Both the position numbers and the translations under genes were made by a program. Below the pieces are notes generated by a model, which ran no database searches, was not told the DNA's origin, and saw nothing but the letters and a program-made list of their open reading frames with translations. Below are positions 12,347-36,215 of a DNA stretch of 64,000 bases, piece after piece. The stretch covers positions 1,446,378-1,510,377 of the forward strand of contig NZ_KQ031391.1 of the NCBI RefSeq assembly GCF_000966285.1, given 5' to 3'. The DNA comes from Pseudofrankia sp. DC12. Lineage in GTDB: Bacteria > Actinomycetota > Actinomycetes > Frankiales > Frankiaceae. Numbering within the stretch: position 1 is the first letter of the stretch; each line of letters opens with the position of its first letter.

Positions 12347-12362
12347 TCTTTGGAGGTAGCTG

Positions 12363-12887: not shown

Positions 12888-12893
12888 CCTCAG

Positions 12894-14079: not shown

Positions 14080-14083
14080 CCAC

Positions 14084-15445: not shown

Positions 15446-15772
15446 AGATCAATCCGGTCCAGCTCTTACCCACCCCGAGTGGGGTCGCTGAACTCCTCAC
15501 CGCAGCGGGCCGCCTCGTCGAGCCGTCTCGCGGCTGATCCCCGCACGCTGAGAGATCTCACGACGGGTAACCAGTGGGTCGGTGGCGGCGCTCCCCTCAC
15601 TCCCACGATCCGAGGGCGCTGTGCTGTCTGAACACATGTGTGCATCCGACCCTTCGCCGGCAGGGTGCGGCCCAGGAGGCATTCCGCAGCCGAGCGAGCG
15701 CGGGAACGCCGGACGGGATCCGTCACCATCAGGTGCCCGTCGCACGCACCGGACCGGCATCGCGGCCGGGCG
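15446..15772. other. Intergenic stretch with a possible HTH relic
   Basis: There is no intact gene. On the minus strand a short frame ending at 15497 reads DPLVTRREISQRAGISRETA, which resembles the recognition part of an HTH domain without the remainder of a protein. Nothing else stands out in this 327-base gap. Confidence 0.3.
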
Positions 15773-16192
15773 TCATGAGGTTCCTCGGATGCTCTGCAGG
15801 AACCTTCCTGACCCATCGTCGAGAACCCAAAATGACCAGCCGTTGCGGTGCGGGCTGACGCTCGGCTTGTAGTGGGCCACCACGGCACGAGCCGCGCCGG
15901 TAGGCGACTTGAAGCTCTGTCCCCTCATCGGCCCAGACGTGATGTCGATCCGAGAGGTCTTCAGATCGTACCTACCCTGGGTGCGGTGCCCCTCGTAGTC
16001 GGCGTAGACCGCCACCACGTCCGCCGTCTTTGAATGCTGCTTTCCCTCCGCTTCCGTCGACGCAGGCAAGGTCGGCATGCTCGTCTCAGCTACCAGGCGA
16101 GCCACCACCTCGCCTGTCGTACAGCCACCTATGCGCGCCGCCAGGGCAAGCGAGCGGTAGGTTTGATCATCCACCTCGACCGAATACGACAC
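15773..16192 (-). CDS. RHH plus RAMA/DUF4357-like domain protein
   Basis: A 139-residue protein with two parts. Residues 1-35 (VEVDDQTYRSLALAARIGGC, then TGEVVARLV) resemble a ribbon-helix-helix DNA-binding unit. Residues 55-138 contain GRYDLKTSRIDITSG and then FKSPTGAARAVVAHYKPS, with NGWSFWVLDDGSGRFLQSIR. That is the layout of RAMA or DUF4357-type domains ('F.SPS.AA.a......NGw.fW....G..L..lR'), which are linked to restriction and modified-DNA recognition. The start is GTG at 16192 behind a GGGAGG-like site. It has no partner nuclease or methylase here. A DNA-binding reader or regulator is the best guess. Confidence 0.6.
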   Translation of the reverse strand: MSYSVEVDDQTYRSLALAARIGGCTTGEVVARLVAETSMPTLPASTEAEGKQHSKTADVVAVYADYEGHRTQGRYDLKTSRIDITSGPMRGQSFKSPTGAARAVVAHYKPSVSPHRNGWSFWVLDDGSGRFLQSIRGTS

Positions 16193-16299
16193 GAAGACCT
16201 CCCTCCCTAGAGAGAGAGATTAGAGCAATCAGAGGAGTCTAAGCAAGATGCTTAAGGGACGCTCCAGGGTCAGCTCCGGCGGCGAGCCGATCGGGCACT

Positions 16300-16334
16300 A
16301 ACTGTTCATAGCTATGATGGTGCTGGCAACAGTT
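16300..16334 (+). promoter_or_regulatory. abiE promoter and operator
   Basis: AACTGTT at 16300-16306 and AACAGTT at 16328-16334 form a perfect 7 bp inverted repeat that encloses the palindrome CATAGCTATG (16307-16316) and a TATGAT -10 hexamer (16313-16318). AbiEi antitoxins are known to repress their own promoter by binding inverted repeats, so this is the likely operator. A decayed copy is at 5003-5045. Confidence 0.7.
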
Positions 16335-16344
16335 AGGAGCAGCG

Positions 16345-16920
16345 GTGAGCCTCGACGCCCTGCCAGCCGTGTTCCGCCTCGACCAGGCCCTCGCGGCGGG
16401 CGTCTCCACGAGGACGCTCGGTCGCCTGCGTGCGACGGGTGAGGTCGACCAGCTCGGCCGAGGTATCTACGTCAAACTCGGAGCCGTCGACCCAGCACTG
16501 GCCCCGCTCGCGGGTGCGGCGGCCCGCCAACCGCGCGCCACGCTCTGCCTGGCCAGCGCGCTCGCGCGCCACGGGCTCAGCGACGACATACCCGCCTCCC
16601 ATGACATCGCACTGCCCCGCAACGTGCGGCCACCCGCAGGCTTCGCGCACGTGACCTGGCACCGCTTCACCCCGGAGACCTTCGACATCGGCCGGGTAGC
16701 GCTTGCGGTTGGCGGGGTCGACGCGGCGGTCTACTCGCCCGAGCGGACGATCGTGGATGTCTTCCGCCTGAGCCATCTCGAAGGCGAGGACGTCGCGATC
16801 GAGGCACTCAAACGCTGGCTGCGTCAGCCCGGCAACCACCCGTCAGCCCTGCTGACTGTCGCCGCGCACTTCCCCGCCACCATCCACCGGCTGCGCCGGA
16901 CCCTGGAGATCCTCGTATGA
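16345..16920 (+). CDS. abiEi: AbiEi-type antitoxin (type IV TA)
   Basis: This 191-residue protein has an N-terminal winged helix (FRLDQALAAGVSTRTLGRLR, then TGEVDQLGRGIYV) and the AbiEi C-terminal domain (ATLCLASALARHGLSDDIP, then VYSPERTIVDVFRL). AbiEi counters the AbiEii nucleotidyltransferase without stable binding and represses the operon. The GTG start at 16345 is set by the GGAG site at 16336-16339 and by the conserved first residues shared with the relic at 5 kb. The downstream toxin gene overlaps by four bases (ATGA). Confidence 0.88.
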   Translation: MSLDALPAVFRLDQALAAGVSTRTLGRLRATGEVDQLGRGIYVKLGAVDPALAPLAGAAARQPRATLCLASALARHGLSDDIPASHDIALPRNVRPPAGFAHVTWHRFTPETFDIGRVALAVGGVDAAVYSPERTIVDVFRLSHLEGEDVAIEALKRWLRQPGNHPSALLTVAAHFPATIHRLRRTLEILV

Positions 16921-17813
16921 CCCCGACCCGCCCCACCCGGGCCACCGCCGACGGCCGCGCCTACCTGGACCTGCAGAACGCCGCCCGCCGCGGCGGCCGC
17001 GACACCGCCGAGTACCTCGCCCTCTACGCACTCGAAGGCTTCCTCGCCCGGCTCGCCGCGTCCCGCTACGCCCAGGACCTCGTCCTCAAAGGCGGAGTCC
17101 TGCTCGCCGCCTACGCCGCCCGCCGACCGACCCGCGACATCGACCTACAAGCCAACCGGCTGTCCAACGAGGTCGATGAGATCGTGACAGTCGCCCGCGA
17201 AATCGCCGCGCAGCCCCGCGACGACGGCCTCGCATACGACCTCGCCACGATCACCGGACGCGACATCCGCGACGAGGACCAGTACGCCGGCGTCCGCGTC
17301 TCGATCACCGCCCACCTCGCGTCCGCGGACATCCCGTTCCACCTGGACGTCAACTTCGGCGACCCGATCTGGCCCAACCCGGTCACCATCGCCTTACCAC
17401 TCCTGCTCGGCGGCCACATGACCGTCCTCGGCTACCCGGCACACATGATCCTCGCCGAGAAGATCGCCACCGCCCTCGAACGCGGCACCGTCAACACCCG
17501 CTGGCGCGACTTCGTCGACATCGCCACCATCACCACCCACACCACGATCATCGGGACCGACCTCGCCCAGGCCCTCCAGATCGTCGCCGACCACCGCCGC
17601 CTCACCCTCACCCCGCTGGCCCCGCTGCTCGCTGGCTTCGGCGCCTACGCCCAGCCGAAATGGCGAGCCTGGCGACGCCGCCAGCGACTCGAAGCCACCA
17701 CCCCAGAACTCTTCGACGACCTTGTCACCACCTGCTGCGCACTCGCCGACCCCATCATCCGCGGCGAAGCCACCCACCACCTCTGGCGCGACGGCGCCTG
17801 GCAACCAGCCTGA
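16917..17813 (+). CDS. abiEii: AbiEii nucleotidyltransferase toxin
   Basis: A 298-residue protein of the usual AbiEii length. The nucleotidyltransferase signature is LVLKGGVLLAAYAARRPTRD with Gly59-Gly60, followed by Asp74 and Asp76 in RDIDL. A later block, HMILAEKIATALERGTVNTR then WRDFVDI, carries the Lys and Arg/Asp positions typical of the family. Such proteins bind GTP and cause growth arrest and phage abortive infection. The gene is intact and coupled to abiEi. Confidence 0.88.
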   Translation: MTPTRPTRATADGRAYLDLQNAARRGGRDTAEYLALYALEGFLARLAASRYAQDLVLKGGVLLAAYAARRPTRDIDLQANRLSNEVDEIVTVAREIAAQPRDDGLAYDLATITGRDIRDEDQYAGVRVSITAHLASADIPFHLDVNFGDPIWPNPVTIALPLLLGGHMTVLGYPAHMILAEKIATALERGTVNTRWRDFVDIATITTHTTIIGTDLAQALQIVADHRRLTLTPLAPLLAGFGAYAQPKWRAWRRRQRLEATTPELFDDLVTTCCALADPIIRGEATHHLWRDGAWQPA

Positions 17814-18589
17814 TGTGAGGCTCGTCGGCCGTTCGCCGGCCTCCGCCGGGTCGGACTGCGCGACGGCGGCCTTGCGCGGTGTGGTCCGGTCGGACGCAGT
17901 ACCGCGGCGCAGGCCCGCCAGTCGCCGGCGCGGCCGGTTCATCACAGCCGGGTCGGCACAGACGGTCCGCCGATCCACCGCATTCGTTCGTTCATAGCAT
18001 CGCGATATGTACGAATGGCTGGGATCGCGTTCGGTTGTCCACAGACTCCCCTCGCCGACGTCCCGTTGCTCGACCGAAACTGTCGAGGCGGCCGTGCGGG
18101 ACCATCGCTCAGCAACGCCGCCCACCCAGCGAGCTCTCTCGCGCCTAAAGATCATGAATGCGCCACGATTTTGATCTTTATAGTCGAAGTCGAGACGAGT
18201 AACAGCGGGCACCCGCCGACCCGATTTGCGGCATCGCACCGCCGGAACGTGGCGGCAGAAAGCGTTTGCCGGGCATGGTGCGTTCCGGGAAGGTGAACGT
18301 ATGACGCTCTGACCGACGGCAACAGGTCCTTTCCAGTCTTCACGGGGCTGATCCCGCGCCGTGACGCTGTCGGTCACCCTCCGCCCCAGAGGAAGTAGAG
18401 CGTTCTTCGTGTCTCAGCTACCCGCAGGCCAGGAAGCTGGTCAGGATTCCGCCAAGGCCAAGGCCACGACGGCGTTGGCGTCGGTTGCCGTGTTCGCGTC
18501 TGACGCGAGTTGGATGGAGCCCGAGGCCCTGGTGCAGTGTCGCCAGGTCGCCGTCCTCGACGGCATGGTCCACGTCGCCGCGATGCCGG
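17814..18589. other. Non-coding stretch after abiE
   Basis: There is no gene that I can support. Plus- and minus-strand frames here have poor codon structure. The AT-richer patch near 18150-18220 is the only compositional change. This is probably decayed mobile-element DNA. Confidence 0.35.
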
Positions 18590-18724
18590 ACCCACATCCT
18601 GGCAAGGGGCGCCCCTATCGGCGCGGACCGGCGCGGGCCGTCCCCGCTGTTCTGGTCCCACGTCGGCCCGTACGGGAGATTTCACCTCGATATGGACAGC
18701 AGGCTCGACATCACCAGGAGGTAG
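18590..18724 (+). pseudogene. C-terminal relic resembling a Tn3-type transposase
   Basis: The frame ends SPLFWSHVGPYGRFHLDMDS, then RLDITRR and stop at 18722-18724. The pattern 'LSPL...H+..yGrf.ld' resembles the C-terminal end of Tn3-family transposases. Upstream of about codon 45 no matching sequence is seen in any frame. This is a weak call that rests on about 25 residues. Confidence 0.3.
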
Positions 18725-19025
18725 GCCTACCTCGCATGGCCTCGGTGCCGCATACTGCCGGTCGCCGTGATGCGGCGACGGGCCCTTCCACAGCTGGTGC
18801 TCTCCTGGTCTGCGTTCAGCGTGAAGTGCGGTGAGTAGTGCCGCCGGCCTTGTCCTCGTCCGGCCAGAAGAGAAGTCGTATTGCTCACCCGTCCCCTCTA
18901 GCCATGGAACTCCGATCCCCAGCAAGGAAGACCCGCACCGCGCTAGAGCAGCACAGTGTCTACACGCAGGAAATCACTGGCAGGGATGCCGAACGACTGA
19001 GCGGCCAGGATCCAGCGAATCGTCC

Positions 19026-19175
19026 TCACTCCCCGCTCGTGCGCAGTTCCCAGGGCCGATCGCCGACCCGCAGCGTGTCGTAGCCAAGGTCGTAGATACC
19101 GCGGCAGAACGCGCTCAGGCCAGCGGCGCTGCTGACGGCGGGCCCGACTATGGGAAGTGTGAAACCAAGCTTCAT
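19026..19175 (-). pseudogene. 5' fragment of an LLM-class F420-dependent oxidoreductase
   Basis: The frame from the ATG at 19175 reads MKLGFTLPIVGPAVSSAAGL, then FCRGIYDLGYDTLRVGDRPW, and stops 49 codons in. That is the start of a luciferase-like F420-dependent oxidoreductase (beta strand 1, helix 1, strand 2 with 'lWvgDr'). The rest of the ~300-residue barrel is missing. It lies 34 bases downstream of the reductase tail at 19210, so the two probably formed one operon before the region was damaged. Confidence 0.65.
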
Positions 19176-19209: not shown

Positions 19210-19273
19210 TCAGACGGGAAGTTCGGTGATGCTGAGGGCGAAGTCCAAGTTCCCCACCCCGTGGTTGGCGAGG
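19210..19273 (-). pseudogene. 3' end of the reductase gene cut by the composite transposon
   Basis: Reading leftward from the IS boundary, this gives LANHGVGNLDFALSITELPV and a TGA at 19210-19212. It is the missing C-terminus of the reductase whose first 190 codons lie at 33042-33612. Compare [16 protein letters not shown] in the intact paralogue at 35592. Joined through one copy of the 11-base duplication, the gene is 624 bases, the same length as the paralogue. Confidence 0.9.
19263..19273. repeat. Target-site duplication, left copy (11 bp)
   Basis: GGTTGGCGAGG directly abuts the outer end of IS copy 1 and is repeated exactly at 33042-33052 outside IS copy 2. No such duplication joins the inner ends, which marks the whole 13.8 kb as one transposed unit. 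Confidence 0.9.
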
Positions 19274-21372
19274 CAATGCCAGTGAGCGGAGCTTGATCGC
19301 GTTTGCGGAGTGGTCTGGCTGGGTCTTGACCGGCGGTCACGGTGGGTGACGGTCGAGGGGTGGGGTGGCCGCGGGTGGCCGGGTGGTGTGACACGCCCGG
19401 CTGAACGGGGAACGTCCGGGTTGCGGCGATGTGGGTGGATCTCCGGGTAGAGATCGGGTGTCGAATCCATTTTCCCTGGCCCGGAGTCCGCTGTGTCTTT
19501 CTACTCTGTCGTGGCGTCGGTCGTGCTGCCTGGGGTGGCTGGCGGGCTTGCCGGTGCGGGGCTGGTCGCGTTGCGTGCCGGGGACGTGGCGGTGGGGCGG
19601 GCGCGGACGGCGGGGCGGCGCGGGGGTGGGCAGGCGCCGGTGGCGGAGCGGCGGTCGTTGCTGACGCTGGCGGACGGGGCGCGGCCGGTCGGGCAGGGCG
19701 ATGACATCGTCATCTACCGGCCTGTGCTGCGCGGTGTCGCGAGGACGTATGACGACGGCCAGATCCGGGTGGTCGGCCGGGCGGCGGACTTCGTGCGTCT
19801 CGGGCTGCTGGAGGCCGAGATCGACCGGCTGCTCGGTCCTGACGCGATCAACAGGCTGGTCGGTGAGCTCGCCGCGGGGAACGACGCCCCGGCGGCCGGC
19901 CCGGCCCTGGCCGCCGACGAGGTGGCCGGTGGGCAGGAGGGGGATACGGCGCGGGTGTTGACCCGGCCGGTGCTCGCGCGGGCGCTGATTCTGGGGATGG
20001 TCATGGCGGACACGTCGTGGGATGACGTGCTGGCGGCCCTGTTCGGTGAGCTGGCGGAGGTGCCGTTCACCGCGTGTGGTGCGGTCCCGGCGGGGTCGGG
20101 GTTCTCGAGGGCGCGGCGCGCCCTGCCCGGCGCGGTGCTCGACGAGCTGTGTGCCCGGCTGCTCGCCGCGGTGCGTGGCGAGTTGTCCGGCACCGACGGC
20201 GCGCAGGCGCTGACGGCGGGGAGCTTCCGCCTCGCCGGGTTCGACGGGACACTGGTCCGGCTGCCCGACACCGCGGACAACCGGGCGTTGTTCGGGGCGG
20301 GCACCGACCCGGCGCCGTACCCGCATGTGCGGCTCCTGCTCGACAACGATGCCGGGACGAAGGCGCCGCTCGCCTACGCCTACGGCCCGTCGAGCGGGGC
20401 GAAGGACGTCGGCGAGCAGGCCCTGCTCGAGCAGGTCGCCGAGGCGCCCGGGCTGCGCCGGCCTGACCTGCTGCATATCGGTGATCGCAACTTTCCCGGC
20501 GCCGACCGGCTGGAGCGCCTCGCCGCGGACGGGATGAAGCTGCTCGTGCGGCTGCCCGGCGGGATCACCGTGCGCCGGGTCGGGGACTGGCTGCCCGACG
20601 GGTCGTTCCTCGCTGACCTCGGTGCCGAGAAGGTCCTGGCCGGCTGGCGGGTCGTGGAGTACGACGTGTTCGCGGGCGGGGTCCACACCGGTGAGACGTT
20701 CGCGGTGGCCACCAACGTCACCGACCCCGCCGCGCTGTCCGCCGCGCAGGCCGCCGACGCCTACCACGCCCGCTGGGGCGCCACGGAGACCCCGCTGCGC
20801 GAGCAGAAAGCGGCCCTCCACCGCTCCGGGCCGGGCAGCGGCCCGATGCTGCGCGCGACCGACCCGTTCGAGGCCGCCCAGGAGATCCCCGCCTGGATCC
20901 TCGCCACCAGCCTCATCCGGGCCCTACAGCGCACCGTCGCCGCCCAGGCCACCCCCGCGGCCCGTGGCGCCCACGCCGGCCAGCCCGTCCTCGTGCGCGC
21001 GCTGTCCTACAAGGCGGCCCGGCACGCGGCCCTCCGCCACCTCGGCTGCGCGACCGCGGGCCTCCCCGACGAGATCATCCAGACCCGGCAGCGGCAGGCC
21101 CTCCACACCCTCGGTCGCCGCCGCCACACCCTCGGCCGCGGCCGCACCCGCGACCGCGCCGCCAAGAGCGCCTCCGACTTCCCGACCGCCCGCCCCGGCA
21201 TCACCACCCGCAAGGTCACCTACACGGTCCGGATCTGCGGGCCGATCCGCAACCAGACGCCCGCCACGCTCTCACTGATCACCAACGGTGATCACATCAC
21301 CGACAGCGACCACATGCCGGAACAAGCCAAGGCCGCCTGACAGACGCGATCAAGCACCAGTCACTGGCATTG
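19274..21372 (+). mobile_element. IS4-type element, copy 1 (2099 bp)
   Basis: Inverted ends: from the left CAATGCCAGTGAGCGGAGCT, and from the right on the other strand CAATGCCAGTGACTGGTGCT, with the match continuing through TGATCGCGT. The element carries one transposase gene behind a 219-base leader. Copy 3 at 50814 is nearly identical; copy 2 has one extra base. Confidence 0.9.
19493..21340 (+). CDS. IS4-type DDE transposase, 615 aa (copy 1)
   Basis: Catalytic residues in order: first Asp in LAGFDGTLVRLPDT (about residue 245), second Asp in LLHIGDRNFPGADRL (about 330), and the Glu region YHARWGATETPLREQK (about 428). The last fits the IS4 Y-R-E-K signature with one extra residue between R and E. 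The N-terminus has the insertion-element-4 domain (VLARALILGMVMADTSWDDV). At 615 residues it is longer than most IS4 transposases because of a long N-terminal extension and a basic C-terminal tail (RRRHTLGRGRTRDRAAKSA). The start is the GTG at 19493. This copy appears intact. Confidence 0.88.
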   Translation: MSFYSVVASVVLPGVAGGLAGAGLVALRAGDVAVGRARTAGRRGGGQAPVAERRSLLTLADGARPVGQGDDIVIYRPVLRGVARTYDDGQIRVVGRAADFVRLGLLEAEIDRLLGPDAINRLVGELAAGNDAPAAGPALAADEVAGGQEGDTARVLTRPVLARALILGMVMADTSWDDVLAALFGELAEVPFTACGAVPAGSGFSRARRALPGAVLDELCARLLAAVRGELSGTDGAQALTAGSFRLAGFDGTLVRLPDTADNRALFGAGTDPAPYPHVRLLLDNDAGTKAPLAYAYGPSSGAKDVGEQALLEQVAEAPGLRRPDLLHIGDRNFPGADRLERLAADGMKLLVRLPGGITVRRVGDWLPDGSFLADLGAEKVLAGWRVVEYDVFAGGVHTGETFAVATNVTDPAALSAAQAADAYHARWGATETPLREQKAALHRSGPGSGPMLRATDPFEAAQEIPAWILATSLIRALQRTVAAQATPAARGAHAGQPVLVRALSYKAARHAALRHLGCATAGLPDEIIQTRQRQALHTLGRRRHTLGRGRTRDRAAKSASDFPTARPGITTRKVTYTVRICGPIRNQTPATLSLITNGDHITDSDHMPEQAKAA

Positions 21373-21969
21373 CCGCGACGGCCCGGACGGCGGCTGATTC
21401 GGAGGTATGACTGGCGCGTATACGGAGGACGCGCGCGACGGCAGCGGCCCGAAATGACGGCGGGTGGCGGATCGAGGGACTCATTGTTGGGTCTCCAAGA
21501 GAGTAGCTGTCGCGCTCTCACTTTCGTTGCTGGTACCGCCCCCCCGCTTGACCCCGTTTCTGCTGGGTCGCCTGCCGGCGGCTTCCTACCGCTGGCGATG
21601 TCGGTGGTTAGGAAATTTGTTCGCGGGCGACAGCAGTACCACACCTTCTCTGCTCCGCGCTAGATGCTTCGTCACGGATGACGTCTATCTACTCGGTAGT
21701 AGATAACTCGGGCGCGTGCCGCCGGGGGGCTATGTGACGGCCACGTTAACAGAAATTGTGTGACGTGGATCATATTATGTACGGATAGTGACCGCAGGAA
21801 GGCCTCACGTCGCGACAGAGTGCCGGTTCTAATGGCGCACGGGCCGTCGGAGACCTGCGTGTTTGGTCCGGGGTTGGTGGTGGTTGGGTTGCTGGCCATC
21901 GTTCGGCTTCTACTTTCCGTGGCGAGCTAGTTGATCATTTGGTGGGGCTCGTCCTTGCGCTGACTCCTA
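21373..21969. other. Leader region of the Rhs gene
   Basis: This 597-base stretch between IS copy 1 and the Rhs gene is poorer in GC than its surroundings around 21700-21800 and has no convincing gene. It probably holds the Rhs promoter. I could not identify a canonical -35/-10 pair. Confidence 0.4.
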
Positions 21970-24900
21970 TTGGTCCTTCATTTTCGGTGGTCCCATCGCG
22001 GTCACCGGAGTTCGCGTCTGGTTTCCGTGCTGGCTTTGTCCTGTGCCCTTCTTGCTGGTTTCGGGATCGGAGTCGGTGTGTTGGCGACCCTGTTGGTGCG
22101 TCGGGTGTGGTCCGTGCGCGTTCTGGTGGTGCTGCTGGCGACCGCTCTGGTGTCGACGGCGGTCGCGTCCGTACCGGCGCTGCGGTCCCCGGCGCGGGCG
22201 GTCACGCCGCCGGCCGCCGACCAGGGGCCGGCGGAGCGGCCGGACCTGGTCTCGGCGCAGCTGACGGCGCGAGCGCAGAAACGCCGCATCGAGGTGACCG
22301 GCCTGCGGACCGAGTCGACGACGGCGTACGTGAACCCCGACGGGACGATGACCGTCGACTCCTACTCGGGCATCCGGCGCGTGCGAGCTGGGGACGGCTG
22401 GGCGGACGTCGACACGACCCTGGTGGTCGCCGACGGCAAGGTGACGCCGAAGGTGACCAAGGCGGGCATCGTCCTGTCGGCGGGCAGCCAGTCCGCCGGT
22501 GACGTCGCGACGCTCATCGACGGAGACCGGACCGTCGCCTTCGGCTGGGCGTCGGCGTTGCCGGCGCCGGTGCTGAAGGACAACACCGCCACGTACAAGG
22601 GCGTCGCCGCGGACACTGACCTGGTCGTGACGGTGACCGCGACCGGTTACGACCTGCAGATCGTCGCCTACACGCCCGCCGCCGCCCAGGCCGCGTTGCG
22701 GGTGCCGATGCGGCTGCACGGGGTCACGGCGTCACGGACCCCGGGTGGGGAGACGCAGCTGTCCGCGGGCGGGAAGGTGACGGCCCGGTCGCCGGCGCCG
22801 CTGATGTGGGACGCGCACGTCGACCCGACGAGCAGGCAGCCGACGGCGACGAGGACGGTGGACGCGACCCTGGACACCGCCAAGGCGGACGCGCCGACGC
22901 TGACGCTGAAGCCCGACAAGACGTGGCTGACGGACAAGGCGCGGCAGTACCCGGTGACGATCGACCCAGCGGCGACGCTCGCGGACAACCTCGACACCGA
23001 CGTGAACAGCGCCAACCCGACGACGAACTACGACACGTATTCGCAGCTGCGCCTGGGCAACCTCAACGGCAACTCGGTGAACCGCTCGTTCCTGCGTTTC
23101 GACGACTCGGCGATCAAGGGCAAGCACGTCACGTCGGCGGTGCTGAACCTGTGGCAGGGCGGCTCGCAGACGTGCACGGTCGAGCCGATGGTCGTCGAGG
23201 GCTCCGGCCTGATGGGCCCCGGCACGACCTGGAACAGCCAGCCGACCGCCGACGGCGTCGTCTGGGGCTCGGGGACGTTCAACAACGGCGGCTCGTGCAC
23301 CGGCTCGGGCGGGACGAACATCGACATCACCGGGCTGGTTTCGGCGTGGTCGAGCAACGGCTTCGCCTCGCCGGAGGCGCTGACGATGCGGGCGTCGAAC
23401 GAGTCGGACACCAACCAGTTCAAGTGGTTCTACTCGGGCGACACGATTCTCGCGCCGCACATCTCCGTCACCTACAACTCCTACCCGGCGACGGTCTCGG
23501 GCCGGTCGACGGCGCCCTGTCTGGCGCCGTGCGCCGTCAGCCCGTCCCCGGTGCTGACGAACACGACGACGCCCACGCTCTACGGCGGGTCGTACGACCC
23601 CGACGGCACGGCGGTCCGGGTCGACTTCGAGGTCTGGAACGCGAACGCCACCACCGACATCGCGAACGGATCCGTCTCCAACATCGCGGCGAACAGCACC
23701 GGCGCGTGGACCGTGCCATCGGGCCTGCTCGCGAACGGCGGGTCGTATGAGTGGCGGGCCCGCGGGTTCGACGGGACGGACTACTCGAAGGCCTGGTCGA
23801 CGTGGATCCCGTTCGCCGTCGACACGACCGCCCCGGCCGCGCCGTCGGCCGTCAGCTCGACGGTCTGGCCGTCCGGCGGCTGGGGCTCGGCGACGTCCGG
23901 CACCTTCACCTGGACCTCACCCGGCGGCGACACCAAGTCGTTCCTGTATGGCCTGGACCAGCCGTCGCCGTCCACCGAGACGACCTCGACCACCACGGCC
24001 ACCCTCGGGCCGACACCCGGTCTGCACAAGTTCTACGTGCGTACCAAGGACACGTCGGGCAACCTGTCGTCGGTCGTCTCGTACAGCTTCGGCGTGGGCA
24101 CCGGCGCGCTAGCGCAGCCGGACGAAGGCGCGCGGATCCAGCGGTACACCACGCTCGAGGGCCAGGCACCGTCGAGCCAGGTGTCGGTGCGCTACCAGTA
24201 CCACTGGGGCTCCAACACGTCGACCACCTGGGTGGACATCCCGACCTCCGACGTCGTCATCGCGGGGACCTCGACGCACCCCACGGCCTGGCCGGTGGCC
24301 CGCAACGGCTCGGCCCTGTTCGACAAGCTGACGTGGGACCTCGGCACCACGATGGCGAACTACTCGGTCCCGGACGGCGCGGACCAGATCCGCGCCTGCT
24401 TCACGGACTCGTCCTCGACGGTGTCGTGCACCCCGGCCCGCACGGTGCAGTACTCCCGCCGCGCGTTCGCCGACGCGGACGCGACCGCACCGGTCGGCCC
24501 CGGGACGGTGGCGCTGCTGACCGGTGACTTCGCGGTCTCCGCCACCGACGTGTCCATGCCCACCTACACCGGCAGCCTGACCGTCGGCCGTACGGACACG
24601 ACACTGTCGAGTGCCGGTGGACTGGTTGTCGACCCGTCGTCGCCGGCGGCGGTCGGCTGGGCCGGCAACGGCTGCACCGCGGCCGGCAACGCGGTGACGG
24701 CGTCGTTCACCGCGCCGGCGAACGCGCTGCTGCTCGCGTTCGGTGACACCGCGTCCAACGCCTCGGGCGCGAGCAACGGGCCGTCGCTCTCGGACTCCGG
24801 TGGCCTGACCTGGACCCAGATCGGCAGCTCCGGCGCGAGCGCGACCAAGGACGAGGCCGTCGCCTGGTGGGCGAAGACGACCGGGTCCTCGGCGCGCACG

Positions 24901-27900
24901 GTGACGCTGCACGCGTCGAACAACGTGTGCACGAAGTTCCTCAAGGTCATCGTGCTGACCGGCGCCAACCTGATCAACCCGATCGCCGCGACGAACATCG
25001 GTCCCGCGACGACGGCGGAGGGCGTGCTCAACCAGTCCGTCACGTCGACGACGGCCGGGTCGATGGCGTTCGCGGCCGTGGCCGACTGGAACGCCGCGGG
25101 CACCCCGACACCTGGCACCGGCGTCACGCTGGCCGGTAGCTACTCCCAGTTCGACGCGACCGGGGCGGCCCTGTACCGGACCGCGCCGTCGACGACGTTC
25201 GGCCAGACGATGACGATCTCCACCACGGCGCCGACGACGGCGACGAACTCGTGGGTCATGTTCGAGGTCCGGCCCGCCGTCGCCGCGACGACACCCGCCG
25301 CGACCGGGGTGTTCGGCCCCGGCTGGACGGCGTCCATGCCGGGCCCGGACGCCGGCCGCGCCGACGAGTCCCTGGCCGACTTCACCGACTCCCAGGGCTA
25401 CGTGACCCTGACCGACGAGACCGGGGTCCAGGACGTCTACCTCCGGTCCGGCACCGGCGCCTACCCGTACGCCTACACCGGTGTCGGTGACTCCGGGTCG
25501 GACGGGTCGAAGCTGGTCAAGAACTCGGCGACCCAGTTCACCGCGACCGACGACGACGGCACCCAGACGGTCTACCAGGCGGTGACCGTCAACGGCGCCA
25601 CGACCTGGCCGGTCGCCAGCGTGGTCGAGCCCGGTTCGGGTACCACCTCGTCCTTCACCACGGACTCCGCCGGCCGGACCACGCGTATCCTCGCGCCGGT
25701 CCCGGCCGGCATCACGTGCATCACTCTGGTCGCCGGGTGCCGCGCACTGACGCTGACCTACGCGTCCTCGACGACCGCGACCGGCACCACCCAGGCGACC
25801 TGGGGCGACTACGTCGGCCGGCTGACCGCGATAGCGATGTCGCTCAACGGCAACCCGGCGGTCACGGTCGCCCAGTACGCCTACGACTCGAACGGCCTGC
25901 TGCGTTCCGCCAAGGATCCCCGGACCGGGCTCGCGACCACCTACGGCTACGACAGCCTGAACCGCCTGACGACGGTCACACCGCCCGGCCAGGCGACCTG
26001 GACCATGGCCTACGACGGCAGCGGTCGGCTGCTGACGGCGTCCCGGCCGACCCCGGTCGGCGCGACCGCGACCCAGACGGTCGCTTACGACATCCCCGTC
26101 ACCGGCACCGGCGCGCCCATCGACCTGTCCTCCGGCCAGGCCGCGAACTGGGCCCAGACCGACCTGCCGATCTACGGCGCGGGCGTCTTCGCGGCCGACC
26201 ACGTGCCCGCCTCGCCGCCCACCGCCACGGACTGGCCCTACGCGTCCCTGACCTACCTGGACACGGACGGCCGAGCGGTCAACGCGGCGAGCTACGGCAA
26301 CAACGCCTGGCAGATCAGCACGACGGAACACGACGCCAACGGCAACGTCGTCCGCTCTCTGTCCGCGGAGAACCGCGACCAGGCGCTGAGCCCCACCGCC
26401 GACACGGACCCGTCGGTAGCCGCGCTCACGACCTCGGCCGCCCGCTCGCAGTTGGTGGACGACCAGACGGTCTACTCGTCGGACGGCGTGCTCGTCACCG
26501 ACACCTACGGCCCGACGCACCCGATCATCGACAACAGCGGCGGCCGGTACTCCGCCCGCGAGCATGTCCACACCGACTACGACCAGGGCGCCCCGTCCGC
26601 ACCCGACCCCTACCGCCTGCCTACCACGGTCACGACGACAGCCCGGACGCTCACCGGAACGGACGTCGACCCCCGCAAGACCGTGAACGGCTATGAGGCC
26701 AAGACCGGGGCCGACCCGTCGACCTCCGGCTGGACCCTGCGCAAGCCCACCACCGTGACGACCTGGATGGGCGGCGGCACCACCCCCGACATCGTCAAGA
26801 CGACCTACTACAACGCCGCCGGCAACGTCGTCGAGAGCCGCCAGCCCAAGGCGAACAACACCGGCACCGACGCCTACACCACCCTCACCACGTACTACAC
26901 GGCGACTGGGACGGGTAGCTGCGTCAACGCCTCGTGGACCGGCCTGGCCTGCACCTCCGGTCCGGCCGCCCAGCCCAGCACCGGCAACCCGCTGCCCGTG
27001 ACCACCAACACTTACAACGATCTCGCCGAGCCGCTGACGTCGACCGACAGCGTCACCGTCTCGGGCACGACGACGACTCGGACGACGACCGACACCTACG
27101 ACAGCGCGGGCCGAAAGACCTCCGAGGCGATCGCCGCGAGCCCCGCGGCCAACGGCGGTACTGCCCTTCCGACCGCCACTTACGGCTTCGATCCCGCGAC
27201 CGGTCTGGCAACGACCACAACCGCCAGCGGAATCACGCTGACCACGGGCTATGACTCCTGGGGTCGGGTCACGTCGCAAACGGATGCCGATGGCAACTCG
27301 GCCTCGAGTAGCTATGACATCGACGGTCGGGTGGCGACCTCGTCCGACGGGAAGGGTACCTACACTTACACGTATGACGGAGTCGCGGGAGAACACCGCG
27401 GCCTGGTCACCTCCCTCAACGTCGGCGCCGGCTCCGCCCCGTCCACCTTCTCCGCCACCTACAACGGCGACGGAAGCATGACGACGGAGACCTATCCAAG
27501 CGGTCTGGTCGCGAAGACCCGGTACGACAACTCCGGCGATGCCAACGCGCTGACCTACACCATGGGCACCACTCCTTGGATGACGTTCGCGCAGGCCAAC
27601 TCGATCTACGGCCAGGTTCGGCTCGACAGCACGCCACAGGGTGGCAGAACTCTTGGCTATGACCCCTCCGGCCGGCTGGCGTCGGTCGCGGATACCGCCA
27701 GCTTCGGCAGCGGGACGGCCCTGTGCAGCACTCGTGTCTATGCCTACGACGCCGAGTCCAACCGCGCCTCGCTGACGAGCTACCCCGACGCAGGGGGCAG
27801 TGACACCGGCACCTGCTCGACCAGCACGTCACCCACCGGTTTCGGTTTCGGCTACGACCAGGCCGACCGCCTCACCAACAGCGGCTACACCTACGACCTG

Positions 27901-28953
27901 TTCGGCCGGACCACCACCGACCCCTACCCACCCAACGGCACGTCGGCCACGATTGGCTACTACGTCAACGACCAGGTCGCGTCCGAGACAGTGGGCTCCA
28001 CGACCCGCACCTACGCGACCGACCCGGCCCGGCGCATCCGCTCCTGGACCGACGGCAGCTCGACCTCGATCAACCACTACACATCTTCGTCCGGGGACGA
28101 TCCCGCCTGGATCGGGACCGGGACCGCCTGGACCCGCAACATTGTCGGCATCGACGGCAGCCTGGCCGCCAGCCAGGACAACGCCGGCACCGTCACCCTG
28201 CAGCTGGCCAACCTGCACGGCGACATCGTCGCCACGGTGGCGGACTCGACCAGCGCGACGTCACTGGCCAGCTACGCGGACAACACCGAGTTCGGGCTGC
28301 CGTACTTCACCTCCGCGGCCTACCCCACCTACGGCTGGCTCGGCGGCAAGCAGCGCTCCCGCAACACCCTCTCCGGCCTCACCCTCATGGGCGTCCGCCT
28401 CTACGACCCCGACCTCGGCCGCTTCCTCCAGACCGACCCCGTCCCCGGCGGCTCCGCCAACGCCTACGACTACTGCAACGCCGACCCCATCAACTGCACC
28501 GACGTAGACGGACAATGGCCCCACCTTCGGAAGATGTGGAAGAAGCTTCAAAAGGCCGGCCTAAATCTTGCGAACAATAAGCTGATCACGCTCTGCACGA
28601 ACTTTGCACCAGGGCAGCTTGGCATGGCGTGCGGATTGACGCAGGTCATCGGCTACTCACTTAACGGTCAGTTTAGGAACGCTGCTGGCGTCGGTTTGGG
28701 AATGGCGGTTGGAGCGGGGGTCGGTGCGGCCATCGATCGTTATGGAATGGCTGTCCTCGCGCGTCGGGTAGTTCGACCTCGGAGCGTCCGAGCTCCCAGG
28801 CTCAGTCGTGTGGAAAGGTTTGCGGTGGCGGCCTACCGGCGGACCAAGGGCAGGCCGTGGTCGTATCCTAAGTACGTGGCGGGCGTCTCATCGGCCAACA
28901 CAACGGCGACCTACGTCAGTGGAAGCCGTGCCTCGTGGGATCCGTATTGGTGA
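21970..28953 (+). CDS. Rhs/YD-repeat polymorphic toxin, 2327 aa
   Basis: A giant secreted protein. It has an N-terminal hydrophobic export region (LVVLLATALVSTAVASVPA), a beta-rich part, and a DNRLRE-type module around residues 330-500 (YSQLRLGNLNGNSVNRSFLR, WNSQPTADGVVWGSG). Then follow Ig/Fn3-like segments and many YD repeats from about residue 1290 (YGYDSLNRLTTVTPPG, TGYDSWGRVTSQTDADGN). The conserved Rhs core ends at about residue 2180 with GVRLYDPDLGRFLQTDP and YDYCNADPINCTDVDG. The remaining ~147 residues are a variable toxin tip with a glycine-zipper helix (VGLGMAVGAGVGAAID); this part is markedly lower in GC. Start is the TTG at 21970; a later GTG is possible. The toxin activity is not identifiable. 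Confidence 0.88.
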   Translation: MVLHFRWSHRGHRSSRLVSVLALSCALLAGFGIGVGVLATLLVRRVWSVRVLVVLLATALVSTAVASVPALRSPARAVTPPAADQGPAERPDLVSAQLTARAQKRRIEVTGLRTESTTAYVNPDGTMTVDSYSGIRRVRAGDGWADVDTTLVVADGKVTPKVTKAGIVLSAGSQSAGDVATLIDGDRTVAFGWASALPAPVLKDNTATYKGVAADTDLVVTVTATGYDLQIVAYTPAAAQAALRVPMRLHGVTASRTPGGETQLSAGGKVTARSPAPLMWDAHVDPTSRQPTATRTVDATLDTAKADAPTLTLKPDKTWLTDKARQYPVTIDPAATLADNLDTDVNSANPTTNYDTYSQLRLGNLNGNSVNRSFLRFDDSAIKGKHVTSAVLNLWQGGSQTCTVEPMVVEGSGLMGPGTTWNSQPTADGVVWGSGTFNNGGSCTGSGGTNIDITGLVSAWSSNGFASPEALTMRASNESDTNQFKWFYSGDTILAPHISVTYNSYPATVSGRSTAPCLAPCAVSPSPVLTNTTTPTLYGGSYDPDGTAVRVDFEVWNANATTDIANGSVSNIAANSTGAWTVPSGLLANGGSYEWRARGFDGTDYSKAWSTWIPFAVDTTAPAAPSAVSSTVWPSGGWGSATSGTFTWTSPGGDTKSFLYGLDQPSPSTETTSTTTATLGPTPGLHKFYVRTKDTSGNLSSVVSYSFGVGTGALAQPDEGARIQRYTTLEGQAPSSQVSVRYQYHWGSNTSTTWVDIPTSDVVIAGTSTHPTAWPVARNGSALFDKLTWDLGTTMANYSVPDGADQIRACFTDSSSTVSCTPARTVQYSRRAFADADATAPVGPGTVALLTGDFAVSATDVSMPTYTGSLTVGRTDTTLSSAGGLVVDPSSPAAVGWAGNGCTAAGNAVTASFTAPANALLLAFGDTASNASGASNGPSLSDSGGLTWTQIGSSGASATKDEAVAWWAKTTGSSARTVTLHASNNVCTKFLKVIVLTGANLINPIAATNIGPATTAEGVLNQSVTSTTAGSMAFAAVADWNAAGTPTPGTGVTLAGSYSQFDATGAALYRTAPSTTFGQTMTISTTAPTTATNSWVMFEVRPAVAATTPAATGVFGPGWTASMPGPDAGRADESLADFTDSQGYVTLTDETGVQDVYLRSGTGAYPYAYTGVGDSGSDGSKLVKNSATQFTATDDDGTQTVYQAVTVNGATTWPVASVVEPGSGTTSSFTTDSAGRTTRILAPVPAGITCITLVAGCRALTLTYASSTTATGTTQATWGDYVGRLTAIAMSLNGNPAVTVAQYAYDSNGLLRSAKDPRTGLATTYGYDSLNRLTTVTPPGQATWTMAYDGSGRLLTASRPTPVGATATQTVAYDIPVTGTGAPIDLSSGQAANWAQTDLPIYGAGVFAADHVPASPPTATDWPYASLTYLDTDGRAVNAASYGNNAWQISTTEHDANGNVVRSLSAENRDQALSPTADTDPSVAALTTSAARSQLVDDQTVYSSDGVLVTDTYGPTHPIIDNSGGRYSAREHVHTDYDQGAPSAPDPYRLPTTVTTTARTLTGTDVDPRKTVNGYEAKTGADPSTSGWTLRKPTTVTTWMGGGTTPDIVKTTYYNAAGNVVESRQPKANNTGTDAYTTLTTYYTATGTGSCVNASWTGLACTSGPAAQPSTGNPLPVTTNTYNDLAEPLTSTDSVTVSGTTTTRTTTDTYDSAGRKTSEAIAASPAANGGTALPTATYGFDPATGLATTTTASGITLTTGYDSWGRVTSQTDADGNSASSSYDIDGRVATSSDGKGTYTYTYDGVAGEHRGLVTSLNVGAGSAPSTFSATYNGDGSMTTETYPSGLVAKTRYDNSGDANALTYTMGTTPWMTFAQANSIYGQVRLDSTPQGGRTLGYDPSGRLASVADTASFGSGTALCSTRVYAYDAESNRASLTSYPDAGGSDTGTCSTSTSPTGFGFGYDQADRLTNSGYTYDLFGRTTTDPYPPNGTSATIGYYVNDQVASETVGSTTRTYATDPARRIRSWTDGSSTSINHYTSSSGDDPAWIGTGTAWTRNIVGIDGSLAASQDNAGTVTLQLANLHGDIVATVADSTSATSLASYADNTEFGLPYFTSAAYPTYGWLGGKQRSRNTLSGLTLMGVRLYDPDLGRFLQTDPVPGGSANAYDYCNADPINCTDVDGQWPHLRKMWKKLQKAGLNLANNKLITLCTNFAPGQLGMACGLTQVIGYSLNGQFRNAAGVGLGMAVGAGVGAAIDRYGMAVLARRVVRPRSVRAPRLSRVERFAVAAYRRTKGRPWSYPKYVAGVSSANTTATYVSGSRASWDPYW

Positions 28954-29092
28954 CCATGGGTTCCTGCGATGCACGAAGGAAATTTAATCCAGCAAACCCC
29001 AATTGCAGCCGTCGCGACGAGGATCTCCTAAATGCCAATTGATACCCCAGCCGCTGCTCCCCGTTTTGTGCGACCGTGATCGGAGGGGTTCG

Positions 29093-30091
29093 GTGATCAA
29101 GTCGCCTGTTCGCGCCACGAACCTGTCCGATGGTAGGCGCCTCCTGCTCGGTGTGCTCGTGGCCGTGGGAGGTCTTGGGCTGGCGCTGGGGTGGCTGCGG
29201 TCCGACTACGTCTTCGCGCACAGAGGCGTTTCGACGATCGCTGAGGTCGTCAAACCCGGCGTGGGGCGTGGTCCGAGCACTGTTCGTTTCACGACGGGCG
29301 ACGGTCGAGTGATCGTGACGGAGCTCGATGCGCCAACGGACGTTCCGGTCGGCGGTCGGCTACGGATCGTGTACAACCGAGGCAACCCCTATGCGGTACA
29401 TGGCGGGAACAACGTTCCTTACTACGTTGGGCCTGCGGCAGCCGGTGCTGCCGCGCTCGGGATCGGGGCCTTCTTCGTCGGGACCTTCGTGCGACGGCGT
29501 CGGCGGTTCCCCGGCTGGAGCCCGATGTCCCTCGCCGAAGCCACGGAGCTGTTCACCAGGTGGCCGGGACCGTGGTGGATCGCGGGTGACCGCGCTGTCG
29601 ACCGCGGGCTGGCCCGCGCTGCGGCCGGGCCGGACATGACCATCCTCGTGACCGTGCCCAAGGCAGGGATGTTGCAGGCACTACTGCCAGGCTGGGAGAT
29701 CTGGTCCTACAGCAGCTGGCCGCGCCGGCACCGGCCGACCGACGACCTCAGCCGTACAGGGACTGACGAACTGTGGGCCCGGCAGGCCGACCGGCAGCCG
29801 TGGCAGCTGCGCATCCTGCTCGCCGACGTCGACCAGGATGCTTGGAAGCCTCGTTGGGACGCCCAGTCACCTATCCCACTCGCCGATCTGAGCCAGGCCG
29901 GCACGGACCCGGTCAAATTCCTGATCCCTGAACTGGCGCTCTACTGGCAGGTCGTCGCCGCCCGCCGACCGTGGACCTCCCAGAAGATCATCGACGCGGT
30001 CGCCTTGTTGAGCAAGTCGCAGCGGGAAAAGCTACGTCAGACCCTGAACGACGGCGGCCATGCCGACGCCGCGCGCCGCGTCCTCGGCTGA
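29093..30091 (+). CDS. Two-TM DUF3592-like protein, candidate Rhs immunity
   Basis: A 332-residue protein. It has a first membrane helix (LLLGVLVAVGGLGLALGWL), a short extracytoplasmic beta domain of the DUF3592 type (RFTTGDGRVIVTELDAPTDV, RLRIVYNRGNPY), a second helix (AAGAAALGIGAFFVGTFV), and a cytosolic part with Trp-rich motifs (FTRWPGPWWIAGD). The GTG at 29093 is chosen for its GGAGGGG site at 29082-29088. It directly follows the Rhs toxin tip, where immunity genes normally lie. The immunity role is inferred from position. The membrane topology would fit protection against an envelope-acting or membrane-crossing toxin. Confidence 0.65.
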   Translation: MIKSPVRATNLSDGRRLLLGVLVAVGGLGLALGWLRSDYVFAHRGVSTIAEVVKPGVGRGPSTVRFTTGDGRVIVTELDAPTDVPVGGRLRIVYNRGNPYAVHGGNNVPYYVGPAAAGAAALGIGAFFVGTFVRRRRRFPGWSPMSLAEATELFTRWPGPWWIAGDRAVDRGLARAAAGPDMTILVTVPKAGMLQALLPGWEIWSYSSWPRRHRPTDDLSRTGTDELWARQADRQPWQLRILLADVDQDAWKPRWDAQSPIPLADLSQAGTDPVKFLIPELALYWQVVAARRPWTSQKIIDAVALLSKSQREKLRQTLNDGGHADAARRVLG

Positions 30092-30519
30092 GGCAGCGCG
30101 TCACCCGCCCCCTGCCGGCGAGTAGTTCTCGGCCGGTCAGGTAGCTGGTGCCGTTGTCGTGAAGCTGATCGTCGGCGGCGGCCAGCCCCGCACAACAGAG
30201 CCCGCGCATGTCCGATCGGTGTGATAGGAACAGAACAGTTGCATACAACCTACACTGATCTTCTGGTAGCGCCCGTCAGCGGACCCGCTGATCGTTGTTT
30301 TCGGCCTGTGGTGGCCGTGAATCGGTCCTGATGGGCCAAGACTCCTCTCCGCCATCGAGCGAGAGCGGCGGGGAGTGGGACGAGCCGGGGACATCGAGGC
30401 CCTCAATGTTGCGCTGGACCCAGCCTGGCCCCTCGTCGGAGTCTCGGTCCTGATCGTCGTGATCGGCGTTTATCTGCTGTCGGTCGTGGCGCTGGGCAGT
30501 CACACGGCGGCACCGATAG
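30092..30519. other. Non-coding or decayed stretch before orphan Rhs tip
   Basis: I see no intact gene. A plus-strand frame from 30375 (SVLIVVIGVYLLSVVALG) is hydrophobic and runs into the Rhs-tip relic, but it has no ribosome binding site or family match. Confidence 0.35.
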
Positions 30520-30941
30520 GGCCAGTGGAAATGGCGCAAGCACATCACCTGGAAGAGAGTGGCGTTCGCGGCAGGTATCGCCTCGTTCGGGGTCTGCGTC
30601 GTCGCATCCGCGGGTGCCTGCGCCGGCGTCGGGATCATCGCGGCCGGTCTGTCGGCGACAGCAAAACCAATGGGAAGCTCAACAAGACCTGGGTCAAGAG
30701 CTTCGCGCTCAACGCCACGATAAACACCGCAGGGGCGGCAGCCGGATGGGCGCTTGGTGCCGGGAGACTGGGCGGAGTCGGTGTGAGGGCTTCGGCGCAT
30801 GGTCGTGCCACGCTCCTTTTCAAGTTCCTCGGCCACACTAGCGGAGGCAGGTTGATGCGCGCGAACCCCAAGATCATATATCAGCGGTCTGCGCAGGCCG
30901 CGGCGGGATTGGGGTACTGCTGGGAGACGCGGTCCTGCCCC
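30520..30941 (+). pseudogene. Orphan Rhs C-terminal toxin-tip relic
   Basis: Two overlapping frames encode the parts of a typical Rhs tip. The first (from 30520) reads WKWRKHITWKRVAFAAGIAS, then FGVCVVASAGACAGVGIIAA, a pretoxin membrane helix. The second (from about 30650) continues SKTNGKLNKTWVKSFALNAT, then INTAGAAAGWALGAG. A frameshift near 30655 separates them and IS copy 2 truncates the 3' end. There is no start and no Rhs core. Silent tips of this kind are known downstream of rhs genes as reservoirs for tip exchange. Confidence 0.65.
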
Positions 30942-33041
30942 CAATGCCAGTGAGCGGAGCTTGATCGCGTTTGCGGAGTGGTCTGGCTGGGTCTTGACCG
31001 GCGGTCACGGTGGGTGACGGTCGAGGGGTGGGGTGGCCGCGGGTGGCCGGGTGGTGTGACACGCCCGGCTGAACGGGGAACGTCCGGGTTGCGGCGATGT
31101 GGGTGGATCTCCGGGTAGAGATCGGGTGTCGAATCCATTTTCCCTGGCCCGGAGTCCGCTGTGTCTTTCTACTCTGTCGTGGCGTCGGTCGTGCTGCCTG
31201 GGGTGGCTGGCGGGCTTGCCGGTGCGGGGCTGGTCGCGTTGCGTGCCGGGGACGTGGCGGTGGGGCGGGCGCGGACGGCGGGGCGGCGCGGGGGTGGGCA
31301 GGCGCCGGTGGCGGAGCGGCGGTCGTTGCTGACGCTGGCGGACGGGGCGCGGCCGGTCGGGCAGGGCGATGACATCGTCATCTACCGGCCTGTGCTGCGC
31401 GGTGTCGCGAGGACGTATGACGACGGCCAGATCCGGCTGGTCGAGCCGGGCGGCGGACTTCGTGCGTCTCGGGCTGCTGGAGGCCGAGATCGACCGGCTG
31501 CTCGGTCCTGACGCGATCAACAGGCTGGTCGGTGAGCTCGCCGCGGGGAACGACGCCCCGGCGGCCGGCCCGGCCCTGGCCGCCGACGAGGTGGCCGGTG
31601 GGCAGGAGGGGGATACGGCGCGGGTGTTGACCCGGCCGGTGCTCGCGCGGGCGCTGATTCTGGGGATGGTCATGGCGGACACGTCGTGGGATGACGTGCT
31701 GGCGGCCCTGTTCGGTGAGCTGGCGGAGGTGCCGTTCACCGCGTGTGGTGCGGTCCCGGCGGGGTCGGGGTTCTCGAGGGCGCGGCGCGCCCTGCCCGGC
31801 GCGGTGCTCGACGAGCTGTGTGCCCGGCTGCTCGCCGCGGTGCGTGGCGAGTTGTCCGGCACCGACGGCGCGCAGGCGCTGACGGCGGGGAGCTTCCGCC
31901 TCGCCGGGTTCGACGGGACACTGGTCCGGCTGCCCGACACCGCGGACAACCGGGCGTTGTTCGGGGCGGGCACCGACCCGGCGCCGTACCCGCATGTGCG
32001 GCTCCTGCTCGACAACGATGCCGGGACGAAGGCGCCGCTCGCCTACGCCTACGGCCCGTCGAGCGGGGCGAAGGACGTCGGCGAGCAGGCCCTGCTCGAG
32101 CAGGTCGCCGAGGCGCCCGGGCTGCGCCGGCCTGGCCTGCTGCATATCGGTGATCGCAACTTTCCCGGCGCCGACCGGCTGGAGCGCCTCGCCGCGGACG
32201 GGATGAAGCTGCTCGTGCGGCTGCCCGGCGGGATCACCGTGCGCCGGGTCGGGGACTGGCTGCCCGACGGGTCGTTCCTCGCTGACCTCGGTGCCGAGAA
32301 GGTCCTGGCCGGCTGGCGGGTCGTGGAGTACGACGTGTTCGCGGGCGGGGTCCACACCGGTGAGACGTTCGCGGTGGCCACCAACGTCACCGACCCCGCC
32401 GCGCTGTCCGCCGCGCAGGCCGCCGACGCCTACCACGCCCGCTGGGGCGCCACGGAGACCCCGCTGCGCGAGCAGAAAGCGGCCCTCCACCGCTCCGGGC
32501 CGGGCAGCGGCCCGATGCTGCGCGCGACCGACCCGTTCGAGGCCGCCCAGGAGATCCCCGCCTGGATCCTCGCCACCAGCCTCATCCGGGCCCTACAGCG
32601 CACCGTCGCCGCCCAGGCCACCCCCGCGGCCCGTGGCGCCCACGCCGGCCAGCCCGTCCTCGTGCGCGCGCTGTCCTACAAGGCGGCCCGGCACGCGGCC
32701 CTCCGCCACCTCGGCTGCGCGACCGCGGGCCTCCCCGACGAGATCATCCAGACCCGGCAGCGGCAGGCCCTCCACACCCTCGGTCGCCGCCGCCACACCC
32801 TCGGCCGCGGCCGCACCCGCGACCGCGCCGCCAAGAGCGCCTCCGACTTCCCGACCGCCCGCCCCGGCATCACCACCCGCAAGGTCACCTACACGGTCCG
32901 GATCTGCGGGCCGATCCGCAACCAGACGCCCGCCACGCTCTCACTGATCACCAACGGTGATCACATCACCGACAGCGACCACATGCCGGAACAAGCCAAG
33001 GCCGCCTGACAGACGCGATCAAGCACCAGTCACTGGCATTG
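30942..33041 (+). mobile_element. IS4-type element, copy 2 (2100 bp)
   Basis: It has the same inverted ends as copy 1 and the same orientation. One base longer, because of an insertion near 31440. It forms the right arm of the composite transposon: the reductase gene continues directly at 33042. Confidence 0.9.
31161..33009 (+). pseudogene. IS4-type transposase, copy 2, frameshifted
   Basis: It is identical to copies 1 and 3 over almost the entire length. At about 31437-31450 the sequence reads CGGCTGGTCGAGCCGGG where copy 1 reads CGGGTGGTCGGCCGGG: one substitution and one inserted base. The frame is lost after about residue 95, so the catalytic domain is only reachable from internal starts. 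A second change turns LRRPDLLHIGD into LRRPGLLHIGD. This copy is probably inactive but can be moved by transposase from copy 1 or 3. Confidence 0.85.
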
Positions 33042-33052
33042 GGTTGGCGAGG
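33042..33052. repeat. Target-site duplication, right copy (11 bp)
   Basis: GGTTGGCGAGG, identical to 19263-19273, abuts the outer end of IS copy 2. Confidence 0.9.
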
Positions 33053-33612
33053 CCCACCGTGACCACGCCCGCTCCTTCCAGCCAGTGCGCCATTTTCAGG
33101 CCGCCGACGTCCAGCGGGCGCAGCCCGAGGCTCTCGATGAACGCCTCCACACTTGCCTTGGCCTGCGCATTATCGCCAGCGAGGAAGACGTCGGGCTGGC
33201 CCTTCTCCAGGACATGACGGAAGATGGTGTTGAACGCCTTCACCACGCTGGCGCTGGCCGGGGCCGCCTTGGCGACTGCCTGCGCGATCGAGGTCTCCTC
33301 GCGGTGGGCTAGCCCGTCGAACGTGGAATTGAAGGGATTGCTGATGTCGACGATAACCTTGCCCGCGAGAGCGTCTCCGTACTGGGCGACGACCGGCACG
33401 ACGCCGTCGTACAACAGGGCCACGATGACGATGTCCCCGGCCGGGGCGGTTCCCCATTCTCCCGTCGTGGCGCCGCCGCCGAGAGCCTTGGCCAGGTCAG
33501 CGGCCTTGGACTGATCGCGGCCCATGACCTCGACCGTGTTGCCGCCCGCTACCGCCCGCGCACCGATGGTGCGGGCCATGTTCCCGGTGCCGATGATGCT
33601 GATGCTGCTCAT
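33042..33612 (-). pseudogene. NADPH-dependent F420 reductase-like gene, 5' part
   Basis: The first 190 codons of a Rossmann oxidoreductase: SISIIGTGNMARTIGARAVA is the nucleotide-binding GxGxxA loop, followed by GDIVIVALLYDGVV, VIVDISNPFN and VVKAFNTIF. That is the layout of NADPH:F420 oxidoreductase/NAD-binding-2-type enzymes. The ATG at 33612 begins MSSISII, as in the intact paralogue at 36215. The frame is cut at LAN by IS copy 2, and its last 17 residues are at 19210-19262. With the insertion removed, the gene reads through in frame to 207 residues. Confidence 0.9.
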
Positions 33613-35591: not shown

Positions 35592-36215
35592 TCAGCTGAG
35601 ACTGCTGACGCCGAGGGAGAAGTTGAAGTCCCCCACGCCGTGGCGGGCCAGGCTGATCATCAGCAGGCCCGCCCCTTCCAGCCAGTGCGCCATCTCCAGG
35701 CCTCCGGCATCCAGGGGTCGCAACCCAAGGCTCTCGATGAACGCCGATACGCTCGCCTTGGCCCACGCGTCGTCGCCGGCGAAGAGCACGTCCAGCGGGC
35801 GGCCCGGGGCCAGTACGTGGCCGAAGACGGTGTTGAACGCCTTCACGACGTGCGCGCTCGCCGGGGCGGCCTTGGCGATCTCCTGCGCGGCGGAAGTGCC
35901 GTCGGGGCTAACCAGCCCGGTGGCGTCGGCGTTAATGGGGTTGGTGATGTCGATGATGACCTTGCCGACGAGCGCGTTCCCGTACTGGGCGACGACCGGC
36001 ACGGCGCTGGCGTTCGGCACGGCGAGGATGACGATGTCGCCGGCTGGGGCAGTGCCGAACGTCCCGACCGTGGCGCCGCCACCGAGCGCGGCGGCCAAGT
36101 CCTTGGCCTTGGCCGCGTCGCGACCGACGACCTCGACGGCATTGCCGCCCTCGACCGCGCGGGCGCCTATGGCGCGGGCCATGCCCCCCAGGCCGATAAT
36201 GCTGATGCTGCTCAT
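35592..36215 (-). CDS. NADPH-dependent F420 reductase-like protein (intact paralogue)
   Basis: A 207-residue Rossmann enzyme with [20 protein letters not shown] (GxGxxA), [31 protein letters not shown] and [16 protein letters not shown]. The C-terminus is [12 protein letters not shown] followed by [16 protein letters not shown]. It is paralogous along its whole length to the broken gene at 33042-33612/19210. Family members pass hydride between NADPH and F420 or act on other small substrates. Divergent from the LysR gene at 36414, which may regulate it. Confidence 0.85.

Follow-up and report, generated by a model that had tools for sequence, protein, structure and literature searches.

An Rhs locus bounded by two IS4-like elements interrupts a reductase gene in Frankia sp. 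DC12

The insertion sequences and their genomic copies

The window analysed here comprises 64,000 nucleotides (positions 1,446,378-1,510,377) of the single-contig genome of Frankia sp. DC12, which has a total length of 6,884,336 bp. Within it, a 13.8-kb unit consisting of an Rhs locus segment between two IS4-like insertion sequences lies inside a gene for an F420-dependent NADP reductase-like protein (Table 1). The two insertion sequences have the same orientation and show three differences, namely two substitutions and a 1-bp insertion. Their terminal repeats are CAATGCCAGTGA and TCACTGGCATTG.

Table 1 Features of the IS-bounded unit and its surroundings in the window.
Feature	Position	Strand	Remarks
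AbiEii-like gene	16917-17813		Part of ~17 kb of seemingly additional DNA
Reductase 3' end, F420-dependent NADP reductase-like, interrupted	19210..19273	-	Includes the left 11-mer
Target-site duplication GGTTGGCGAGG, left copy	19263..19273	none	Abuts outer end of IS copy 1
IS4-like insertion sequence, copy 1 (left)	19274..21372	+	2099 bp
Transposase of IS copy 1	19493..21340	+	615 aa, open frame
Cargo, Rhs locus segment	21373..30941	+	9,569 bp, ends cut at the IS ends
Rhs gene	21970..28953	+	Up to 2,327 aa from longest possible start; DNRLRE domain, RHS/YD repeats, Rhs_assc_core
Variable C-terminal end, putative toxin domain	28495..28953	+	3' of the Rhs core
Candidate cognate immunity gene	29003..30091	+	Up to 362 aa, start uncertain; candidate by position only
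Remnants resembling downstream Rhs orphan cassettes	30325..30941	+	Cut short by IS copy 2
IS4-like insertion sequence, copy 2 (right)	30942..33041	+	2100 bp; transposase frameshifted by 1-bp insertion
Target-site duplication GGTTGGCGAGG, right copy	33042..33052	none	Abuts outer end of IS copy 2
Reductase 5' part, interrupted	33053..33612	-	Joins the left part; contiguous in G005 and G001

The transposase of copy 1 matched the NCBIfam model NF033592 (transpos_IS4_1) with E=3.4e-21 and 75.7 bits, which is below the curated cut-off of 115 bits, and we therefore use the wording IS4-like. No Pfam family was matched at a threshold of 0.001. Members of the IS4 family encode DDE transposases with the signature Y-(2)-R-(3)-E-(6)-K and generate target duplications of about 9-13 bp. 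In the transposase studied here, the candidate motifs are GFDGT, IGDRNF, and YHARWGATETPLREQK, and the R-to-E spacing was read by eye as 4, compared with 3 in the IS4 signature.

The DC12 genome contains five near-identical copies of this element, as well as nine full-length copies of a sister element that is 73% identical to it. A third direct copy in the window (50814-52912) is a simple insertion that duplicated 10 bp of its target, CCCAGGAGAG, and duplications of 10-11 bp, read by eye, flank 8 of the 9 full copies of the sister element. Duplications of the size found in the reductase gene (11 bp) are thus normal for this type of element, and all of these sizes fall inside the range of the IS4 family.

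The element was not found in the 34 other genomes of the family (35 searched including DC12, E<=1e-200), and among 394 genomes of the class at E<=1e-60 the sole other relative of the transposase was 48% identical and contained stops. A GTDB scan with the transposase, from which the records of DC12 itself were possibly excluded, found no relative, and in 83 plasmid records all matches were partial and had less than 60% identity.

The interrupted reductase gene and the empty site in relatives

The outer ends of the two direct IS copies are abutted by the same 11-mer, as an earlier note on this DNA had stated. GGTTGGCGAGG occurs exactly twice in the window, while 0.07 matches would be expected by chance and none of 100 shuffled sequences contained two copies. 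At the inner ends, the sequence preceding IS copy 2 (GGTCCTGCCCC) and that following IS copy 1 (CCGCGACGGCC) have at most 3 bp in common, in agreement with the earlier statement that these ends share no duplication. When the outer flanks are joined over one copy of the 11-mer, a 624-bp open reading frame encoding an F420-type reductase is restored. Its length is the same as that of the paralogue at 35592-36215, as had also been stated. An alignment of the two proteins shows 141 identical residues in 208 aligned positions and a single 1-aa gap, so this equality of length is partly luck.

The strongest evidence for an insertion is the empty site in relatives. We queried the right flank across the genus and found matches of 95% in two genomes, G005 and G001, starting at the first base after the duplication. 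The joined flanks aligned to both without a break across the junction, at ~95% identity. Both genomes carry an uninterrupted reductase gene with a single GGTTGGCGAGG in matching context. On the left side, homology extends for ~100 bp from the insertion site in G005 and for 66 bp in G001. IS-bounded DNA has therefore entered the intact reductase gene at this position and duplicated 11 bp of its target. The flanks had been described as two halves of one gene, and the contiguous gene in these relatives confirms this; an origin of the halves from two different genes is ruled out. A chance match of the 11-mer is likewise ruled out by the shuffles, the restored frame, and the empty site. In the relatives examined, the Rhs locus does not lie at the reductase position.

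In G005, sequence matching positions 1-1965 of the window lies only ~900 bp from the reductase gene. This suggests that ~17 kb in the window (about 1965-19170), including the AbiEii-like gene, is additional DNA.

Two further copies of the element lie elsewhere in the genome in duplication-free flanks. The copy at 105.8 kb is followed by GGTTGGCGAGGCCCA (genome 105758-105772), beside a peptidase S51-like gene for which only distant homologues (48-54%) were found. These 15 bp are the same as those on the side of IS copy 2 that faces the reductase and occur only twice in the whole genome; the opposite flank of the 105.8-kb copy shows no such identity. The 15-bp match may reflect rearrangement, assembly mis-joining, or coincidence. 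The copy at 2.459 Mb (2459409-2461507) has no target duplication; on its left lies a repeated element that recurs at other places in the genome, and on its right lies unrelated sequence. The DC12 assembly was made from Illumina reads, with other methods used to close gaps (PMC4541282), and taken together with these two sets of flanks this makes rearrangement or mis-joining around the element possible.

The Rhs cargo and its source-type loci

The RHS/YD repeats, the Rhs core, and the variable C-terminal end of the cargo gene fit a putative polymorphic toxin, a function that we infer from its domain architecture. The putative toxin end has no family match above the cut-off. The downstream gene, which has no family match, is a candidate for the immunity gene by its position.

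Versions of the same Rhs locus free of the insertion sequence were found in shared context at 6.107 Mb of the DC12 genome, in Frankia sp. AgB1.9 (G006), and in G002. In all three, the common sequence runs upstream through the point at which the cargo starts, indicating that the copy in the window is cut exactly at the edge of the left IS. From 21373 to 25145 (3,773 bp) the cargo matches the resident copy at 6.107 Mb without a single difference. The first mismatch is at 25146, after which differences are scattered, divergence climbs from about 26000, and the C-terminal end and next gene, beyond the Rhs core, are not alignable. The 3' core, the C-terminal end, and the next gene are instead ~90-97% identical to AgB1.9 in most 300-bp bins (99.7% in one bin). 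The DNA of the toxin end is about 96-97% identical to AgB1.9 and could not be aligned to the resident copy or to G002, and the candidate immunity gene is conserved at 90-96% in AgB1.9, behind the same toxin end. Among the downstream remnants, 30325-30521 is 90% like the resident locus and 30520-30695 is 91% like AgB1.9, where it is located after an Rhs-core fragment.

The identity of the 5' part to the resident copy, combined with the AgB1.9-like 3' part, indicates that the cargo is a relocated, mosaic second copy of the Rhs locus. Its composition would fit a donor of the same lineage carrying another toxin allele, a local duplication whose 3' part was later exchanged, or an imported copy converted by the resident 5' part. 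The donor copy itself was not detected, as the resident locus shows neither an insertion sequence nor a scar. A more distant Rhs locus (74%) is located at 1287272-1293873 of the genome, near a copy of the sister element at 1280838.

Origin of the unit and comparison with known systems

The simplest account, and probably the correct one, is that the IS-Rhs-IS unit entered the reductase gene by composite transposition in one step. The source would have been an Rhs locus sharing its lineage with the resident one at 6.107 Mb, in which one IS entered just upstream of the Rhs gene and another entered a downstream orphan cassette. The two direct copies, together with the Rhs locus between them, would then have inserted into the reductase as a single unit through the outer IS ends, with duplication of 11 bp of target sequence. 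Separate entry of each IS into the source locus would account for the differing inner flanks. This would leave the genome with a second Rhs locus that differs in its toxin end and in the gene that follows. The open transposase frame kept in IS copy 1 favours this account. The observation of the unit at one site only, the missing donor copy, and the possible rearrangement or mis-joining around the element count against it.

A rather unlikely alternative involves two steps: a single IS inserted into the reductase with the 11-bp duplication, and a circle carrying an IS and the Rhs locus was later integrated by RecA within that IS. This would yield identical outer and inner junctions, and the five near-identical IS copies offer ample substrate. 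For a contact-dependent inhibition (CDI) element with IS2-like repeats, a circle has been described that inserts next to an IS already in place (PMC6350997). Recombination by RecA between near-identical insertion sequences is reported to duplicate that region (PMC12124856). However, this route requires two events where one suffices, and the intermediate with a single IS was seen in no genome examined, this gene having been seen only in G001 and G005, where the site is empty. We infer one-step transposition rather than recombination. The earlier proposal that a composite transposon moved the Rhs locus is borne out as regards the IS-bounded 13.8-kb unit, the 11-bp duplication, and the empty site, and its move as a single unit is probable.

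It is very improbable that the arrangement is an assembly artefact in which a lone IS in the reductase and an Rhs segment located elsewhere were mis-joined through identical insertion sequences. The assembly was built from short reads as 12 contigs in one scaffold with gaps closed by PCR, Sanger, and PacBio sequencing (PMC4541282), and two IS copies have the duplication-free flanks described above, but the mate-pair library, at 6.5 kb, is long enough to bridge a 2.1-kb IS (PMC4541282) and the window contains no N. A target preference of the element, expressed at two independent insertions, would be in line with the GGTTGGCGAGGCCCA that also follows the 105.8-kb copy beside the peptidase S51-like gene, but it can practically be dismissed, as the left and right flanks belong to a single gene, which G001 and G005 carry unbroken with just one 11-mer, and the other targets of the element and its sister are dissimilar.

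A further and more tentative suggestion, which we consider possible but somewhat doubtful, is that the composite transposon captured the Rhs allele of another strain and installed it as a second locus beside a different native allele. If this is true, one cell holds two toxin/immunity sets, and IS-mediated capture would offer polymorphic toxin alleles a way around the limit of one allele per locus.

The idea that this vehicle explains the horizontal spread of the toxin locus found no support. The element was not found in the 34 other family genomes, the first 3.77 kb of the cargo are identical to the resident locus, and no second IS-Rhs-IS unit was seen; the other Rhs loci examined lack this IS. 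The DC12 unit documents clearly, for an actinobacterium, the movement of a polymorphic toxin locus by insertion sequences. It illustrates how a second toxin/immunity allele can be acquired by a genome and gives a testable prediction of excision and a circle.

In the composite transposons of the IS4 family, such as Tn10/IS10 and Tn5/IS50, a pair of inverted IS copies brackets drug-resistance genes. The DC12 unit resembles them in carrying its cargo between two insertion sequences, in the use of the outer ends, in the short target duplication, and in the impairment of one IS copy (here the frameshifted copy 2). It differs in that its insertion sequences are direct, its cargo is an Rhs locus, and it is known from its sequence alone.

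Toxin clusters located between IS copies are already known, including one of the Rhs type in Ralstonia (PMC11481896), and the description of the DC12 arrangement as an unusual vehicle was overstated given the published IS-flanked Rhs and CDI loci (PMC11481896, PMC6350997). For Frankia, our literature search, of partial coverage, found no relevant paper tying Rhs loci to insertion sequences. The bcpAIOB CDI element of Burkholderia thailandensis (~210 kb, IS2-like) is likewise a polymorphic toxin locus between IS copies and has been described as a composite transposon. Its circular intermediate was demonstrated experimentally (PMC6350997), whereas the DC12 unit has been read from a genome sequence only. 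In Ralstonia, the aux12 (Rhs toxin with an HNH nuclease domain) and aux8 clusters are flanked by IS1021 and were interpreted by the authors as a composite transposon (PMC11481896). As in DC12, a toxin/immunity cluster lies between IS copies. The Ralstonia clusters encode T6SS effectors and involve another IS, whereas the DC12 unit carries an actinobacterial Rhs locus for which the empty site, the target duplication, and an IS-free locus of the source type are all visible together.
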